Source: Bacteroidota bacterium (GTDB taxonomy: Bacteria > Bacteroidota > Ignavibacteria > Ignavibacteriales > Ignavibacteriaceae). Taken from it: 64,000 bases of DNA. The notes beneath the pieces are model-generated. The model saw only the letters and a program-made list of their open reading frames with translations, was not told where the DNA came from and made no database searches. The stretch's first letter is position 1. Every line of letters begins with the position of its first letter. The translations under genes were made by a program, and so were the position numbers. Positions 4,084 through 11,979 of this stretch are shown here, one piece after another. The stretch lies in the NCBI GenBank assembly GCA_021831685.1, contig JAKBMG010000072.1, positions 1-64,000 on the forward strand. The letters run 5' to 3'.

Positions 4084-4695
4084 TTAAGCGTTATTTTCAT
4101 TTTGTTCGGTAGAATTCGATTCAGAAGGAATGTCATCCGGGTTATCCTTACTTTCTTTTTCAGTGCCCCGGTAAAAGATAATCAAAATTAAGACACCTAT
4201 TGTAACGGAAGCATCAGCAAAATTAAAAATAGGCCAGCGGTCAAAGATTTTTCCGAATAAAGAAAATTTAAAGAAATCAAAATCAAGGAAATCGACAACT
4301 TTACCGTAAAACAAAGGGGCATAGCCATAAAAAACCCCATAAAACATCCTGTCAATCAAATTACCTATTGCACCACCAAGAATAAGAGCGATAGACAGCC
4401 GAAGAGTAAAATTCTTTTCACGTATAAAATACAAATAAATTGCCAGCCCGAGGCTTGCTATAAGAGAAAATATTGATAGCCAAAGTTTCATATTAAATCC
4501 TGGATCAAATCCAAAAGCCATTCCAGGATTTTCAATAAAAGTAATACGAAAAAAATTTCCCAAAACCGGAATGCTTTCTCCCTGGAACATTCCAACGTGA
4601 AATATCTTGAGAAACGGAATCGCAAATCCTTTGATAATCATCTTTGAAATTTGATCTACGAGTATAACGGCAAGTGAAATAAAAAAGATTTTCAA
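4084..4695 (-). CDS. lspA: Prolipoprotein signal peptidase II, second tandem copy
   Basis: A 203-residue membrane aspartic peptidase that removes signal peptides from lipidated prolipoproteins. Four hydrophobic segments are visible. The catalytic dyad is intact: Asp115 in GNLIDR and Asp161 in FNFAD. The conserved VVDFLDF and the N-terminal DQISK (Asp14) are also present. It starts eight bases after the stop of a second lspA and aligns with it along its length, most closely in the membrane core. Its hydrophilic tail is longer and Asn/Glu-rich. Both copies look active, so this is a duplication rather than a decayed gene. Confidence 0.9.
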   Translation of the reverse strand: MKIFFISLAVILVDQISKMIIKGFAIPFLKIFHVGMFQGESIPVLGNFFRITFIENPGMAFGFDPGFNMKLWLSIFSLIASLGLAIYLYFIREKNFTLRLSIALILGGAIGNLIDRMFYGVFYGYAPLFYGKVVDFLDFDFFKFSLFGKIFDRWPIFNFADASVTIGVLILIIFYRGTEKESKDNPDDIPSESNSTEQNENNA

Positions 4696-4703
4696 TCGAA
4701 TCC

Positions 4704-5291
4704 TTATTTTTCGGATAAAGCTTTTTCAAGGTTTGAATTAAAATTATCACCGGTAATTTTCTGTTTATTCAGAATAAACAAGAGCAGTATTACTCCCGCA
4801 GTTACTGAAACATCGGCAAAGTTAAACACATAATTACCGAATGTTCTATTAAAAATAAATAAGTTAAAGATCCTGAAGTCGAGAAAATCCACTACTCTGC
4901 CGTGAAATAGAGGAGCATAATCGTACATTATCCCGTAAAAAATTCTGTCTATTAAATTTCCTACGGCTCCACCCAAAATTAAAGCAAGAGAAAGGCGGAA
5001 GCCAATTTTTTTTTCTTTATTCCTAAAAATATAATAAAGCAGACCCATGCTGGCTACCAAAGTGAAAATTGAGACCAGTAGCTTAAAATTACTACCTAGG
5101 TCTATTCCAAAAGCTATTCCGGGATTTTCAACAAGCGTAATGTTGAATATTCCGCCAAAGACCGGGATTTTTTGCCACCGTTCTAAACCTTGAATATTTA
5201 ATTTGATAAATGGAATTGAAAGTCCCTTTACCATCAACTTACTAATCTGGTCAATAATAACTACGAATAAAGAAACGAACAAAACCTTCAA
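4704..5291 (-). CDS. lspA: Prolipoprotein signal peptidase II, first tandem copy
   Basis: A 195-residue signal peptidase II with the same architecture as the next gene: four membrane helices, Asp115 in GNLIDR and Asp160 in FNFAD as the catalytic pair, and VVDFLDF between them. It differs from the second copy mainly in the periplasmic loop at residues 33-45 and near residues 141-155, which in this family lie around the substrate entrance. It follows the DksA-type gene by 75 bases. The window encodes many lipoproteins that would be substrates. Confidence 0.92.
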   Translation of the reverse strand: MKVLFVSLFVVIIDQISKLMVKGLSIPFIKLNIQGLERWQKIPVFGGIFNITLVENPGIAFGIDLGSNFKLLVSIFTLVASMGLLYYIFRNKEKKIGFRLSLALILGGAVGNLIDRIFYGIMYDYAPLFHGRVVDFLDFRIFNLFIFNRTFGNYVFNFADVSVTAGVILLLFILNKQKITGDNFNSNLEKALSEK

Positions 5292-5366: not shown

Positions 5367-6083
5367 TTATTTCTTTTCTTGTTTTTGCTTAATGGGCAAA
5401 CAAAGCTGGCTATGCGGTACGGCTTCCAATCTTGCCCTGGGAATTAAAGGACAAGTTGGGCAGAGATGTTGCGGTTCGTCAATACAGTCAATACATATAC
5501 CATAAGTGCCTGCGTCAATTCTTTTCAGTGCATCTTCAAGATACCCCAAAAATTTGTTTTCTCTTTGTGCATATAAAAAAGTTTTTTCTCTTTCCATTGC
5601 ATCAGTTCCTTGCTCAGCCATGTGGAGGGAATAAGGAGAATTTTCATTTATATATTCACCGGTAGTTGGGTCGAGCATTTGATCTTTAAGATTCTGTAGC
5701 TGTTCAATTATTTCATCACGTTTTGCTAAAATTACCGTTCTGAAATGGTCAAGATCTTTTTTACTATAGCCTTTTATTTTTTCGATTGCCTTTTGCCTTA
5801 TTTCGGAAGCGGAAGGAGAAGTTTTTTCAATTACGAGCTCAGCTTTCTTTTTTCCCTTAGTTTTAGCCATAGATACTTTAATTATCACTTTCTTATTAAC
5901 AATTTTTTGTTTAACGGGTTTCTTAAGTTTAGAAGAACTTGAAGCAATCTTTTTTACCTGCTTTTTAACAACCGGCTTGGGATCTGGCATAGTTTTCTTT
6001 TTTAATTTCTTTAAATCTTTGCCGCTTTTTTTAACAACTGTTTTTTTTGCGACAGCTTTTTTAGTAGCTATTTTTTTTGCCAT
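5367..6083 (-). CDS. DksA/TraR-type zinc-finger protein with Lys-rich N-terminus
   Basis: A 238-residue protein in two parts. Residues 1-85 are a low-complexity Lys/Ala/Val tail resembling histone H1-like bacterial proteins. Residues 95-238 resemble DksA/TraR, with a coiled coil, a tip containing Asp161-Ala162, and a C-terminal zinc finger. The finger is unusual. Cys197-x2-Cys200 is normal, then an insertion of about ten residues brings Cys208-x2-Cys211, and the distal pair keeps only Cys228 (the second position is Ile231). By family it should modulate RNA polymerase; the basic tail suggests nucleic-acid binding, which is inference. Position between ileS and lspA matches ylyA of Bacillus. Confidence 0.82.
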   Translation of the reverse strand: MAKKIATKKAVAKKTVVKKSGKDLKKLKKKTMPDPKPVVKKQVKKIASSSSKLKKPVKQKIVNKKVIIKVSMAKTKGKKKAELVIEKTSPSASEIRQKAIEKIKGYSKKDLDHFRTVILAKRDEIIEQLQNLKDQMLDPTTGEYINENSPYSLHMAEQGTDAMEREKTFLYAQRENKFLGYLEDALKRIDAGTYGICIDCIDEPQHLCPTCPLIPRARLEAVPHSQLCLPIKQKQEKK

Positions 6084-6098: not shown

Positions 6099-9000
6099 TT
6101 ACGGATTAACCTTTTCAATTTGAATGGAACAATCATAATCACCAATTTTCCATTCTTGTTTATAGCCGCCTTCAAACTCATTCTTATTTACAAGTTTTTC
6201 GGCGAGTGTTTCGTTTGCAATATAATCTTTAAATACACTAACTGCTTCTAAAAGTTGGGCATTCCCGCTATATTTAATTTTAATTCTGTCAATCACTTCA
6301 AAGCCTGCGTCTTTACGCATGTTTTGAATTCTATTTACAAATTCTCGGGCTAGGCCTTCATCAATTAATTCTGGTGTTAGTTCTGCATCAATTGCAACTG
6401 TCACGCCTTCCGCACTTTCTACAACCCATCCTTTGATTTCAGAGCCAAGTATTTCAACATCTTCTTTTGAAATCGAAATATCTTCGCCGCCAATATTAAT
6501 AGTCACATTTTGCCCAGATTCAAGTTTTACAATTTCAGATTTTCCAAATTCTTTAATAGCATTAGCGACCGGATTTACTTTCTTCCCAAATTTCGGTCCT
6601 ATTACCTTAAAATTTGCTTTAGCTGATTTAGTGACAATTTCAGAATCATCATTTAAGATAATCAATTCTTTAATATTAACCTCGTCTAAAATTACATCTT
6701 TCATATTAGAAAGGTCTTCGCGTTTTGAATTTTCTACAACCACCATAATTTTTTTAAGTGGCTGTCGAACCTTCAAGTTATTTTTTGCGCGCATTGATCT
6801 TGTAATATAAACGACCTTCTGCGCAATCTCCATCTTGCTTTCCAATTCTTTTTCAATATAAGTTGATTTAGGAAATTCCGTAAGATGAACAGATTCAAAA
6901 TTTTCTTTTCCGGTAACCGAGTTTAAATTCTGATAAAGCTCTTCAGAAATAAACGGAGCAAACGGTGCTGTTAATTTAGATATTGTAATCAAACATTCAT
7001 ATAGAGTTTGATAAGCAGATAGTTTATTTTCATTCATTTCCGATTTCCAGAAACGTCTTCTGCAACGGCGTACATACCAATTTGAAAGATGATCAATCGT
7101 AAAATCAGAGACGGCACGGGCTGCACGGGTAACATCATAATTATCCATTAGCAGTTGATATTCATTAACCAGGCTATTTAATTTTGATATTATCCATCGA
7201 TCAATTTCGGGGCGGACGATGTATGGAACTAACTCCTCTGCAAAGTTAAATTTATCAATATTAGCATAGAGTGCAAAGAAAGAATATGTATTCAATAAGG
7301 TTCCAAAAAATTTTCTTTGGACTTCGACTAAACCTTCTTCATCAAATAAAGTCGGGCGCCACGGCGGACTGTTCGTAACTAAATACCAACGGGTTGCATC
7401 TGCGCCGTATTTATCAAATAAAACGAACGGGTCAACAGAGTTGCCCTTCGATTTGGACATTTTCAAGCCGTTCTTGTCAAGGATTAATTCGTTCACAATT
7501 ATATTCTTAAAAGCCACGCTATCAAACAGCATTGTTGCAATTGCATGAAGAGTGTAAAACCAACCTCTAGTCTGGTCAATTCCTTCGCAAATAAAATCAG
7601 CCGGAAAGAAATTTTTTTCAAATAATTCCTTATTTTCAAACGGATAATGATATTGAGCAAACGACATCGAACCGGAGTCAAACCAAACGTCAATTAGTTC
7701 CGGAGTTCTTTTATAAATTTTTCCTTCCCGCTCAAAAAATATTTTATCAACAAACGGTTTATGGAGGTCTATCTTTTCGATATTCTTTACAGAAATTCTT
7801 TTACCATCTTCGAGGATAAATCCTTCCTTCAATTCCGCTATACTGCCAACAGCAAACATATCTCCATCATCGCTTACCCAAATCGGAAGAGGTGTTGCCC
7901 AAAATCGATCTCGTGAAAGGGCCCAGTCTTTGTTTTCCTCAAGCCAGTTTCCAAATCTTCCGGAGCCTACTTCCGGCGGCTGCCAGTTAATTGTCTTATT
8001 CAGTTCCACCATCCGGTCAGCAATTGATGTTGTCCTAATGAACCAAGATTCGCGAGCATAATAAATTACCGGAACATTTTCATGACGCCAGCTAAACGGA
8101 TATGAGTGAGTTATTGTTTCTTTTCTGAAAAGTTTTCCTTCCTCTTTAAGTTTTTGAATAATTCCCTTGTCGGCATCTTTAACAAATTGACCGGCAAAGT
8201 CAGTAATCTCTGCAGTAAACAAGCCGCCGCGCGTAACCGGCTGCAGCATCGGCAAATTATATTTTTTTGAAAGCTCATAGTCGTCGGCTCCAAATGCCGG
8301 CGCAATGTGAACTATTCCCGAGCCATCTTCAGTGCTAACAAAATCTCCGAGCGTAACGTAAAATGCTTTCTTTTCTGTTTTTACATAATTAAACAATTGT
8401 TCATATTTAATTCCTTCAAGATCTTTACCTTTCAGTTCCGAAAGGATTTCATATTCACCATCGATTACGGAAAGTCTTTCTTTCGCAAGAATAATTTTCT
8501 TTCCATTAAAATTAATTTTTACATAATCAACATCTTTACCGACCGCAAGTGCAACGTTTGAAATCAACGTCCATGGAGTTGTAGTCCAGACCAAAAAGCT
8601 TTCATCAGAATTTTTTATTTTAAAGAAGACATAAACCGAAGGATCTTTTGTTTCGCGGTAACCAAGCGCTAACTCGTGCGAAGACAAAACCGTTTCCGAT
8701 TTTGGATCTTGCGGAACAATTTTATAATCTTTATAAATTAATCCTTTATCGAATAGCGTTTTAAGCGCCCACCAAACCGATTCGATATAATCATTAGTCA
8801 AAGTAACATAGGCGTGGTCGAGATCGACCCAATAACCCATACGGGTTGTCATTTTTTCCCAAAGGTCAAGATACGTAAATACAGAATCGCGGCATGCTTG
8901 ATTATATTTTTCAACCCCATAATCGAAGACTTCGCTTTTTTGTTTTATACCGATTTTCTTTTCAACTTCTATTTCCACCGGCAAACCGTGGGTATCCCAT

Positions 9001-9251
9001 CCGGCTTTCCTTTCGACTCTAAATCCCTGTAAAGTCTTATAACGGCAAACTAGATCTTTCAACGTCCTTGCCATTACATGATGAATCCCTGGTTTCCCGT
9101 TAGCAGTCGGAGGACCTTCATAAAAAGTAAATGACTTTGATTTATTTCTTGTAGAAATACTCTTATCAAATATTTTATTTTCTTCCCAGAACTTTAAGAT
9201 TTTCTCTTCTATTTCAGGATAATTTATTTTTTCTAAATTTTGTTTGAACAT
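6099..9251 (-). CDS. ileS: Isoleucyl-tRNA synthetase, type 2-like, GIHH motif
   Basis: A 1050-residue class I synthetase that charges tRNA-Ile. The N-terminal signature has PPTANG followed by K, P and then GIHH at residues 55-58, where HIGH is expected. The first and third positions of HxGH are therefore exchanged. The KMSKS loop (KMSKSKGNSVDP) is near residue 598. The CP1 editing domain includes TTTPWTLISN near residue 225, and the C-terminal anticodon-binding region has GLAREFVNRIQNMRKDAGF, typical of the eukaryote-like type 2 enzymes. It is the only ileS in the window. Type 2 IleS proteins are linked to mupirocin tolerance. Confidence 0.95.
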   Translation of the reverse strand: MFKQNLEKINYPEIEEKILKFWEENKIFDKSISTRNKSKSFTFYEGPPTANGKPGIHHVMARTLKDLVCRYKTLQGFRVERKAGWDTHGLPVEIEVEKKIGIKQKSEVFDYGVEKYNQACRDSVFTYLDLWEKMTTRMGYWVDLDHAYVTLTNDYIESVWWALKTLFDKGLIYKDYKIVPQDPKSETVLSSHELALGYRETKDPSVYVFFKIKNSDESFLVWTTTPWTLISNVALAVGKDVDYVKINFNGKKIILAKERLSVIDGEYEILSELKGKDLEGIKYEQLFNYVKTEKKAFYVTLGDFVSTEDGSGIVHIAPAFGADDYELSKKYNLPMLQPVTRGGLFTAEITDFAGQFVKDADKGIIQKLKEEGKLFRKETITHSYPFSWRHENVPVIYYARESWFIRTTSIADRMVELNKTINWQPPEVGSGRFGNWLEENKDWALSRDRFWATPLPIWVSDDGDMFAVGSIAELKEGFILEDGKRISVKNIEKIDLHKPFVDKIFFEREGKIYKRTPELIDVWFDSGSMSFAQYHYPFENKELFEKNFFPADFICEGIDQTRGWFYTLHAIATMLFDSVAFKNIIVNELILDKNGLKMSKSKGNSVDPFVLFDKYGADATRWYLVTNSPPWRPTLFDEEGLVEVQRKFFGTLLNTYSFFALYANIDKFNFAEELVPYIVRPEIDRWIISKLNSLVNEYQLLMDNYDVTRAARAVSDFTIDHLSNWYVRRCRRRFWKSEMNENKLSAYQTLYECLITISKLTAPFAPFISEELYQNLNSVTGKENFESVHLTEFPKSTYIEKELESKMEIAQKVVYITRSMRAKNNLKVRQPLKKIMVVVENSKREDLSNMKDVILDEVNIKELIILNDDSEIVTKSAKANFKVIGPKFGKKVNPVANAIKEFGKSEIVKLESGQNVTINIGGEDISISKEDVEILGSEIKGWVVESAEGVTVAIDAELTPELIDEGLAREFVNRIQNMRKDAGFEVIDRIKIKYSGNAQLLEAVSVFKDYIANETLAEKLVNKNEFEGGYKQEWKIGDYDCSIQIEKVNP

Positions 9252-9299: not shown

Positions 9300-9914
9300 T
9301 TAACCAACGTTTTCATATTTTTTAATTAATTCTTTTTCCGCCTGAATAAATTCTTTCAACTCTTTTTCTATTCTTTCTTTTTTCAACACAGTATTCTTAG
9401 CATAAAGGTCTGCATCGTTAGTAATTTTTTGTGCTTTAAGTTTTGCTTCTCTTATTTCAAGCTCTGCTTCCTTTTTTGAGTCGATAAAATTACCTTCAAA
9501 AATTTTTAGTCTTTCTTGAAGAAGGAGAATATCTCTTTGCAGAGTGAGATTTTCTACAACAGACATGCCGAAGATTGCCATTGCTCCAAGAGTAACATTT
9601 CTTAGGCTGTAAAGAATTAAATTTTCAATAAGTAATTCATTAGCAGCAAAGTAATCTCTAAAAAAAGATATCATTAAAACGCTTATTATAGTTGTCGCAA
9701 TAATTATTGCAAACACAACTTTTCCGCCAAAACGCCAGCCGAGAGTTTTATTGATAAACCATCCGCAAGCAAAACACAAGAATGAAAGCACAAACCAAAC
9801 AGCAAAGTTATTATCTCCAAATTTAAACAAATTAGTGTTGATGAAGTTGGAAGCAAAAATTAAAATCATCAACAAAGTCGGTGTTAAATAATGAGAAACC
9901 GGTTTTTTTTCCAT
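9300..9914 (-). CDS. Membrane protein with C-terminal coiled coil
   Basis: About 204 residues and no recognised family. The first 125 residues contain four hydrophobic helices (roughly 10-30, 38-55, 63-85 and 103-125). Residues 128-200 are highly charged and heptad-like (Glu/Lys/Leu), rich in EAELEIREAKLKAQK-type repeats as in DivIVA or ATP-synthase b subunits. Two adjacent ATGs exist; the second (9914) sits five bases after a GAGG ribosome-binding site and touches the phosphorylase stop. Being two genes from divIVA suggests, without proof, a membrane-anchored partner of a DivIVA scaffold. Confidence 0.7.
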   Translation of the reverse strand: MEKKPVSHYLTPTLLMILIFASNFINTNLFKFGDNNFAVWFVLSFLCFACGWFINKTLGWRFGGKVVFAIIIATTIISVLMISFFRDYFAANELLIENLILYSLRNVTLGAMAIFGMSVVENLTLQRDILLLQERLKIFEGNFIDSKKEAELEIREAKLKAQKITNDADLYAKNTVLKKERIEKELKEFIQAEKELIKKYENVG

Positions 9915-10735
9915 CATATCCTCTTAATAACTTCTTTCATTATTAAAGTCATTTTAGGTTCTGCTTTCATTGCAGTAGAAATAATTTCATTCACATCTAC
10001 GGATTTGAGAGAATCGGGAAAACATTCATCGGTAATAATACTGATACCTAAAACTTTCATTCCCATGTGGTTCGCAACAATATTTTCAGGGATGGTTGAC
10101 ATTCCGACAACATCGGCTCCGGTAGCTCTTAGAAATCTATATTCGGCTCTTGTTTCAAGATTGGGGCCTGGCACCGCAATATAAACTCCTTTTTGAACTT
10201 TAATTTTATTTTCCAGTGCAACTTCTTCTGCAATTTTAATTAATTCGTGGCTGTAAGGTTCGCTCATATCAGGGAATCTTGGTCCCAGTTCATCTTCATT
10301 TTTACCGATAAGAGGATTATCTCCAAGAAGATTTATATGATCGGTCATAAGCATAATATCACCCCGCTTAAAGTGCGGATTCATACCACCACACGCATTA
10401 GACACAAGCAAAGTTTTTACGCCTAAAAATTTCATAACTCGTACCGGATAAGTAATTTGCTTCATCGTATAGCCTTCATAATAGTGAAAGCGTCCCTGCA
10501 TGGCTACAACTTTTTTATTACCTATAGTTCCGAATATTAATTTCCCCCTGTGCGATTCGACCGTAGACAAAGGAAAATAGGGCAAGTCCGAATAATCAAT
10601 TTCGTGATCAATTTTAATTTCTTTGACTAATCCGCCAAGTCCGGTGCCCAAAATAATTCCTACCGGATATTCATCTCCGTTTTTTTGTCGAATAATTTTA
10701 AGGGTTTCCTGGATTTTTTCTTTTAAATTTTCCAT
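9914..10735 (-). CDS. Purine nucleoside phosphorylase
   Basis: A 273-residue type I (trimeric, PunA/PNP) phosphorylase that cleaves inosine and guanosine to base plus ribose-1-phosphate. It has the phosphate-binding GIILGTGLGGL segment near residue 27, the GRFHYYEGY motif, SNACGGMNP, and the purine-site segment with VVGMSTIPE followed by N and H residues. Length is typical. It starts three bases after the divIVA stop and overlaps the following membrane gene, so it is in the same operon. An MTAP-like specificity is less likely given the GMST motif. Confidence 0.92.
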   Translation of the reverse strand: MENLKEKIQETLKIIRQKNGDEYPVGIILGTGLGGLVKEIKIDHEIDYSDLPYFPLSTVESHRGKLIFGTIGNKKVVAMQGRFHYYEGYTMKQITYPVRVMKFLGVKTLLVSNACGGMNPHFKRGDIMLMTDHINLLGDNPLIGKNEDELGPRFPDMSEPYSHELIKIAEEVALENKIKVQKGVYIAVPGPNLETRAEYRFLRATGADVVGMSTIPENIVANHMGMKVLGISIITDECFPDSLKSVDVNEIISTAMKAEPKMTLIMKEVIKRI

Positions 10736-10738
10736 TTA

Positions 10739-11278
10739 TTACAATAATTTATTTACAATCTCATCTACATCCAGATCAATTTTTTTTGACTGTTCAACTT
10801 TTTTATTAGCTACCGGGGTTTCCTCGCCAGCATCTTCAATTTTCATTTCAAGAAGATGAGCCTGGGAGTATATAATTGATTTTAGATTCGCAATTATTAA
10901 ATCTCTTTCTTCTCTCAAGTTAATCACCGAATTCCGGATTTCGTTTGCGTTTTCTCTTGCTTTCTCCAAAATCTGCGAAGCTTTTATTTCCGCTTCTTTT
11001 ATCATCAGGCTAGCTTGTTTTTTTGTTGATTCAATTGATTTTGAAGTTGACTCATGTGCTTTTAATAAAGTATCCTGAAGATTTTTTTCAATCTTTCTAA
11101 ATTCTGTCAGTTTAGCAGTTGCTTGATCAAGTTCCTTTTTCAAAGAATCATTTTCTTTCAAGACATTTTCAACTTCATCGGCAAGTTTATCTAAAAAAGC
11201 TTGAACTTCTTCTTTATCAAATCCGCGAAACGATTTATTAAATTCCTGTTTCTTAATGCTTATGGGGGAAACTTTCAT
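10739..11278 (-). CDS. divIVA: DivIVA-domain coiled-coil protein
   Basis: A 179-residue cytoplasmic scaffold. The N-terminal DivIVA lipid-binding motif (MKVSPISIKKQEFNKSFRG and the following FDKEEVQAFLDKL) is followed by a long coiled coil to about residue 155 and a short acidic/basic tail. I chose the ATG at 11278: it overlaps the yggS stop as ATGA and is preceded by AGGAG at a good distance. An upstream in-frame ATG five codons earlier lies on top of that ribosome-binding site. DivIVA family members bind curved membrane and recruit division or polar proteins; the partners here are unknown. Confidence 0.87.
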   Translation of the reverse strand: MKVSPISIKKQEFNKSFRGFDKEEVQAFLDKLADEVENVLKENDSLKKELDQATAKLTEFRKIEKNLQDTLLKAHESTSKSIESTKKQASLMIKEAEIKASQILEKARENANEIRNSVINLREERDLIIANLKSIIYSQAHLLEMKIEDAGEETPVANKKVEQSKKIDLDVDEIVNKLL

Positions 11279-11979
11279 AGCTTCTCCTTCCAATCTTTTG
11301 AATAATCTCTTTCGCCAAAAATTGCCGAACCAATCCTGAGCATTGTGGCGCCTTCTTCAATGGCTAAGTCAAAGTCCGATGTCATTCCCATAGAAAGCTC
11401 TTTTAGATTCAATCCCTCGGCATTTAATTTGTTTTTTAGTTTGTGCAAAGTACTAAAACTTTTTTTAATCAAATCTCTATTTTTTGTAAAAGGAGCGATT
11501 GTCATTAAACCTGCAAGTTCTATATTGTGAAATTCCCGACAATAAAAAGCAATATCCCTTACTTCACTCTCTCCGATTATTCCTGATTTAGTTACCTCGT
11601 TCGACGTTTTAACCTGTAAAAGAACTTTTTGGATCTTATTTATTTTGCCAGCGTATTTATTTATTTCGGATGCAAGCAAAAGTGAATCAACCGAATGTAT
11701 ATATTCTGCAGAATTTACAACAAAACGCACCTTATTACGCTGTAGACTGCCGATAAAATGCCATATTATCTTATTGCCAAGACTTGCAAATTTAGCGTCA
11801 AGCTCCTGAGCTTTATTTTCTCCGAAGTCTCTTATGCCTTCATTGTAAGCTGCTTGAATATCATCTAAGCCGAAATTTTTTGAAACGGCAATAAGCTTGA
11901 TTTCAGAAGTTTCTCTATTTGCTTCCTTACATTTTTCTGAAATTTTTTCTTGGACAATCTTTAATTTTTCTGAAATCAT
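11275..11979 (-). CDS. yggS: YggS/PROSC-family pyridoxal phosphate homeostasis protein
   Basis: A 234-residue single-domain alanine-racemase-fold protein that binds PLP and buffers its cellular level. The PLP lysine lies in LIAVSKNFG near residue 34, and the FGENKAQEL, HFIGSLQRNK, GLMTI and SMGMTSDFDLAIEEG motifs are all present, as is the terminal IGSAIFGER. It is the first gene of the minus-strand run and its stop overlaps the divIVA start by four bases. The position just before a division gene matches ylmE in Gram-positive bacteria. Confidence 0.92.
   Translation of the reverse strand: MISEKLKIVQEKISEKCKEANRETSEIKLIAVSKNFGLDDIQAAYNEGIRDFGENKAQELDAKFASLGNKIIWHFIGSLQRNKVRFVVNSAEYIHSVDSLLLASEINKYAGKINKIQKVLLQVKTSNEVTKSGIIGESEVRDIAFYCREFHNIELAGLMTIAPFTKNRDLIKKSFSTLHKLKNKLNAEGLNLKELSMGMTSDFDLAIEEGATMLRIGSAIFGERDYSKDWKEKL

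Follow-up and report, generated by a model that had tools for sequence, protein, structure and literature searches.

The ileS locus and its GIHH motif

In the window (the whole stretch of 64,000 nucleotides that was analysed), an open reading frame on the minus strand at 6099–9251 encodes ileS, a type 2 isoleucyl-tRNA synthetase (IleRS2) of 1050 amino acids. The translation contains FYEGPPTANGKPGIHHVMARTLKDLV, and the N-terminal region of the product is FYEGPPTANGKPGIHHVMARTLKDLVCRYKT. In this region, the HxGH signature of class I synthetases is replaced by GIHH (residues 55–58) in the context PPTANGKP-GIHH, encoded by the codons GGG ATT CAT CAT at 9089–9078 of the minus strand. An earlier note on this DNA had read GIHH in place of HIGH with the first and third positions exchanged, and both the direct translation and a column alignment with HxGH enzymes confirm it: when aligned with relatives through PPxANG, Gly55 shares a column with the first His of HxGH, and His57 shares one with its Gly. 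Of the coordinates given there, 9078–9090, the start is right while the end lies one base too far and should be 9089. The G/AxHH group is defined by Gly or Ala at position 1 and His at position 3 of the motif, and GIHH has both.

The back-translated pattern PPx(A/V)Nxx-P-GxHH matches once in the window and in none of 100 shuffles. Furthermore, an independent assembly (L057) carries a 99%-identical ileS with the same motif residues, and Gly and His are kept in the motif columns by all of the 84 IleRS2 from related lineages that align as GxHH. Because these sequences share the residues, GIHH is neither a sequencing slip nor an assembly error. The KMSKS signature at residues 597–601 (7449–7463, minus strand) is intact, reads NGLKMSKSKGN in the translation and aligns with the KMSKS of all relatives, and the type 2 C-terminal tRNA-binding domain PF19302 (DUF5915) at residues 851–1048 (6108–6701, minus strand) is complete, with a full-length Pfam match (1–195 of 195, E 3.7e-60).

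The gene order around ileS is yggS, divIVA, purine nucleoside phosphorylase, a small membrane protein, ileS, a DksA/TraR-like protein and lspA, and this order is largely kept in Ignavibacteria relatives. The upstream group at 9914–11979 (minus strand), assigned by the Pfam families PNP_UDP_1, DivIVA and Ala_racemase_N (the last for the YggS-type PLP protein), is found in the same order in 26 of 44 loci with long flanks. The DksA/TraR-like protein (5367–6083, minus strand), named from sequence reading and giving no Pfam match at 0.001, lies just downstream of ileS in 37 of the 44; it has a long N-terminal extension rich in Lys, Ala and Pro, which resembles histone H1 tails. A 205-residue protein (9300–9917, minus strand) between ileS and the purine nucleoside phosphorylase gene also lacks a Pfam match; by eye it has a membrane segment and a coiled coil, and 15 of the 44 relatives have it at the same position. 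Two lspA genes for signal peptidase II, both PF01252 and 54% identical, are arranged in tandem at 4084–4695 and 4704–5291 (minus strand). Among relatives sharing the neighbourhood, two full lspA copies are clear only in one locus (L014), with one copy in the others.

In the genome of 4.52 Mb, which is 99.83% complete, only one sequence scores above the ileS cut-off, and the remaining, weaker matches to the profile resemble other class I synthetases. No second ileS was found in the window or in this genome. The earlier note had called this the only ileS in the window; that holds, and holds genome-wide, with no second ileS carrying HxGH. The ileS locus is a housekeeping locus and not a resistance cassette. 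These data bear on the possibility that a synthetase with this altered motif is a degenerate or non-canonical paralogue that no longer aminoacylates. The idea draws on the absence of the first His of HxGH, a residue important to class I catalysis (PMC10485003). It is, however, very improbable: the genome has no other IleRS, KMSKS is intact along with the anticodon-binding and C-terminal domains, relatives strictly retain the motif, and IleRS2 with a natural ALHH or an engineered GVHH are active (PMC10485003).

Assignment to type 2

The product matches the IleRS family TIGR00392 with 975 bits, above the curated cut-off of 621.4. Its four best relatives among solved structures are IleRS2 chains of Priestia megaterium (921–934 bits), and the single best of them, at 934.3 bits, is 8c8w, a laboratory GVHH mutant of this enzyme; IleRS1 chains score 382 bits at most. 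The alignment with P. megaterium IleRS2 (PmIleRS2) spans residues 12–1029 and is colinear up to PmIleRS2 residue 1014.

A maximum likelihood tree of 60 proteins was calculated after the motif columns and column 71 had been excluded; as a quick search without bootstrap, it is adequate for type assignment and not for fine branching. The split between IleRS2 (53 rows) and IleRS1 has an SH-aLRT of 100, and the window protein lies deep inside IleRS2, nested among Ignavibacteria sequences in a 23-row GxHH clade composed mainly of Bacteroidota, Chlorobiota and Ignavibacteria, plus one record labelled Acidobacteria. One Paenibacillus hit (L121) was not counted as an IleRS1, as it grouped with valyl-tRNA synthetases (ValRS) in the tree. 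Membership in type 2, which the earlier note had proposed from the C-terminal region, is borne out by PF19302, the matches to P. megaterium IleRS2 and the tree alike; the phylogeny it had suggested as a check does not group the product with IleRS1.

Within type 2, the gene might be an acquired resistance determinant like MupA or MupB that sits beside a sensitive housekeeping enzyme. Indeed, the MupA and MupB models (NF000257 and NF000258) give good profile matches of 879 and 847 bits, but these are less than half of the cut-off of 1900. Because the scores are so far under it, the window ileS is an IleRS2 but not MupA/B. Moreover, the MupA locus examined has HAGH rather than GxHH, no second ileS accompanies the gene, and its neighbourhood is vertically conserved. 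We regard an acquired determinant as highly unlikely.

Distribution of GxHH and candidate second-site partners

The PPx(A/V)N-xx-P-GxHH pattern matches all of the 248 sampled genomes of the phylum, which represent 123 of 123 genera, and matches once in all but one. The form with Ala (PPxANG) accounts for 160 of the 248, and the rest are PPTVNG enzymes, for example that of Chlorobium. The sole genome with two matches, G115, has them at C1:44012–44047 and C10:603–638; the latter, close to one end of a 5.6 kb contig, may represent either contamination or a second copy. The pattern used for HxGH-type IleRS2 matches none of the 248 genomes; it detects only enzymes that have Pro ahead of the motif as well as Ala in PPxANG. 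For this reason a separate IleRS1-type pattern was run, which detects E. coli ileS as positive control and likewise matches 0 of 248. Beyond the phylum, GxHH is found in some Clostridia, Acidobacteria, Eisenbacteria and one actinomycete locus, while other Clostridia have an HxGH IleRS2.

GxHH is therefore the fixed state of the whole phylum as sampled; accordingly, it is no peculiarity of this genome and no evidence of recent exposure to the antibiotic.

A first His is also missing from another synthetase of the same genome: outside the window, its ValRS (locus L002, G000:C5:9490–9525) has TMGH for HxGH. In the phylum, a TxGH pattern for ValRS is found in 33 of 118 genomes and HxGH in 72 of 118. 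Those with TxGH belong mostly to one family (f20, probably Chlorobiaceae), and others are scattered.

The cause of this distribution can be considered apart from the function of the enzyme. GxHH may be a neutral, anciently fixed trait of the phylum, with insensitivity to mupirocin as a by-product and the drug never its selective cause, which we consider a serious candidate at somewhat less than even chances. It is favoured by the presence of GxHH in every genome and genus sampled, by the vertically conserved neighbourhood of ileS, by a distribution compatible with one old event over repeated drug selection, and by a published ancestral reconstruction that has GxHH at inner IleRS2 nodes (PMC10485003). 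On the other hand, antibiotic selection was proposed as the cause by Brkic et al. (2023; PMC10485003), and ancient selection is compatible with the present data. As neutrality concerns cause and not enzyme function, it can hold alongside the reading of the window ileS as a functional, intrinsically insensitive GxHH enzyme.

Residues that could accompany the swap were sought by a column comparison of 84 GxHH and 17 HxGH IleRS2. Asn at the N117 column is found in 84 of 84 GxHH versus 0 of 17 HxGH sequences, and Cys at the C69 column in 83 of 84 versus 0 of 17. The L589 column, counted back from KMSKS, corresponds to PmIleRS2 His582, a position contacting mupirocin; it has Leu, His or Met (70, 10 and 4 sequences, respectively) in GxHH, and His in 17 of 17 HxGH enzymes. 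As the HxGH sequences form one clade in the tree, these counts are not independent events. None of the three can be retained as a compensatory partner of the swap: Thermus IleRS combines HVGH with Asn at the N117 column and Leu at the L589 column, as in the window ileS, and the C69 column is Pro in a GVHH enzyme from Nonomuraea. Because of these residues, the three positions are not strictly tied to the motif; they mark lineages and can go with either motif. What Thermus carries at these columns fits the published view of Thermus as a reversion from a swapped ancestor.

A broader proposal is that GxHH is ancestral and universally fixed for the IleRS of the phylum as a whole (Bacteroidota broadly defined, including Chlorobiota and Ignavibacteria). 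The entire phylum would then be intrinsically hyper-resistant to mupirocin for causes that have nothing to do with present-day use of the drug, and lineage-specific second-site adaptations, such as C69, might remove the catalytic cost of engineered swaps. Taken as a whole, this proposal is tentative and rather unlikely.

Predicted mupirocin insensitivity and comparison with known enzymes

The link between GxHH in type 2 IleRS and very strong mupirocin resistance, to which the earlier note had pointed, does exist in the literature: natural G/AxHH in IleRS2 raises the Ki for mupirocin up to 1000-fold (Brkic et al., 2023; PMC10485003). When the motif of Deinococcus radiodurans IleRS2 is exchanged for HVGH, the Ki falls 823-fold, and GVHH put into HVGH enzymes raises it about 200-fold or more. 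Crystallography revealed a shifted position of the motif in IleRS2, where the third His can stand in for the first His in catalysis; modelling has this third His clash with mupirocin, the probable cause of resistance, and IleRS1 does not tolerate the swap (PMC10485003).

By analogy, the window ileS is very probably the sole housekeeping IleRS of a bacterium of the Ignavibacteria group, a type 2 enzyme from the group with a natural GxHH swap that performs catalysis as other GxHH IleRS2 do and is intrinsically insensitive to mupirocin. The shifted tip of the motif-bearing helix would let His57 fit without displacing adenine, His57 would assume the part that the first His, absent here, plays in the transition state, and a steric clash between His57 and mupirocin is expected. 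The predicted Ki is in the high-micromolar to millimolar range, which would make the IleRS of this organism intrinsically insensitive; since engineered GVHH mutants have a Ki of only 35–460 uM (PMC10485003), the magnitude of resistance is uncertain. What His57 does, the resistance, the activity and the Ki are inferred from published studies of other enzymes; the sequence preconditions of the GxHH mechanism are all present in the window ileS.

The GIHH ileS is thus an ordinary member of the described G/AxHH group; the literature already accounts for its motif, which occurs across the phylum as sampled. A published signature of antibiotic hyper-resistance can be read here from raw sequence, and it extends to all sampled genomes of the phylum. 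Because every one of them has GxHH, calls of predicted ileS mupirocin resistance in such environmental or gut genomes should be taken as a sign of intrinsic lineage biology, not of acquired resistance.

The closest counterparts are the non-canonical enzymes of D. radiodurans (ALHH) and Streptomyces griseus, which occur naturally and have a measured Ki (PMC10485003). They share with the window ileS the type 2 class, the exchanged first and third positions and the housekeeping role. The window ileS differs from them in belonging to another lineage (Ignavibacteria/Bacteroidota) and in having GIHH versus ALHH of D. radiodurans. P. megaterium IleRS2 (8c8u and 8c8v, with the GVHH mutant 8c8w) shows the same arrangement of domains, with the type 2 C-terminal domain among them, but its wild type is HVGH, whereas the swap is natural in the window ileS. 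Thermus thermophilus IleRS2 (1ile) is also of type 2, and has HVGH and a Ki of 0.20 uM (PMC10485003), in contrast to GIHH here. MupA and MupB belong to the IleRS2 family as well and are mupirocin resistant, as is predicted for the window ileS; however, they are accessory plasmid genes, with HxGH in the MupA locus examined, whereas the window ileS has GIHH.
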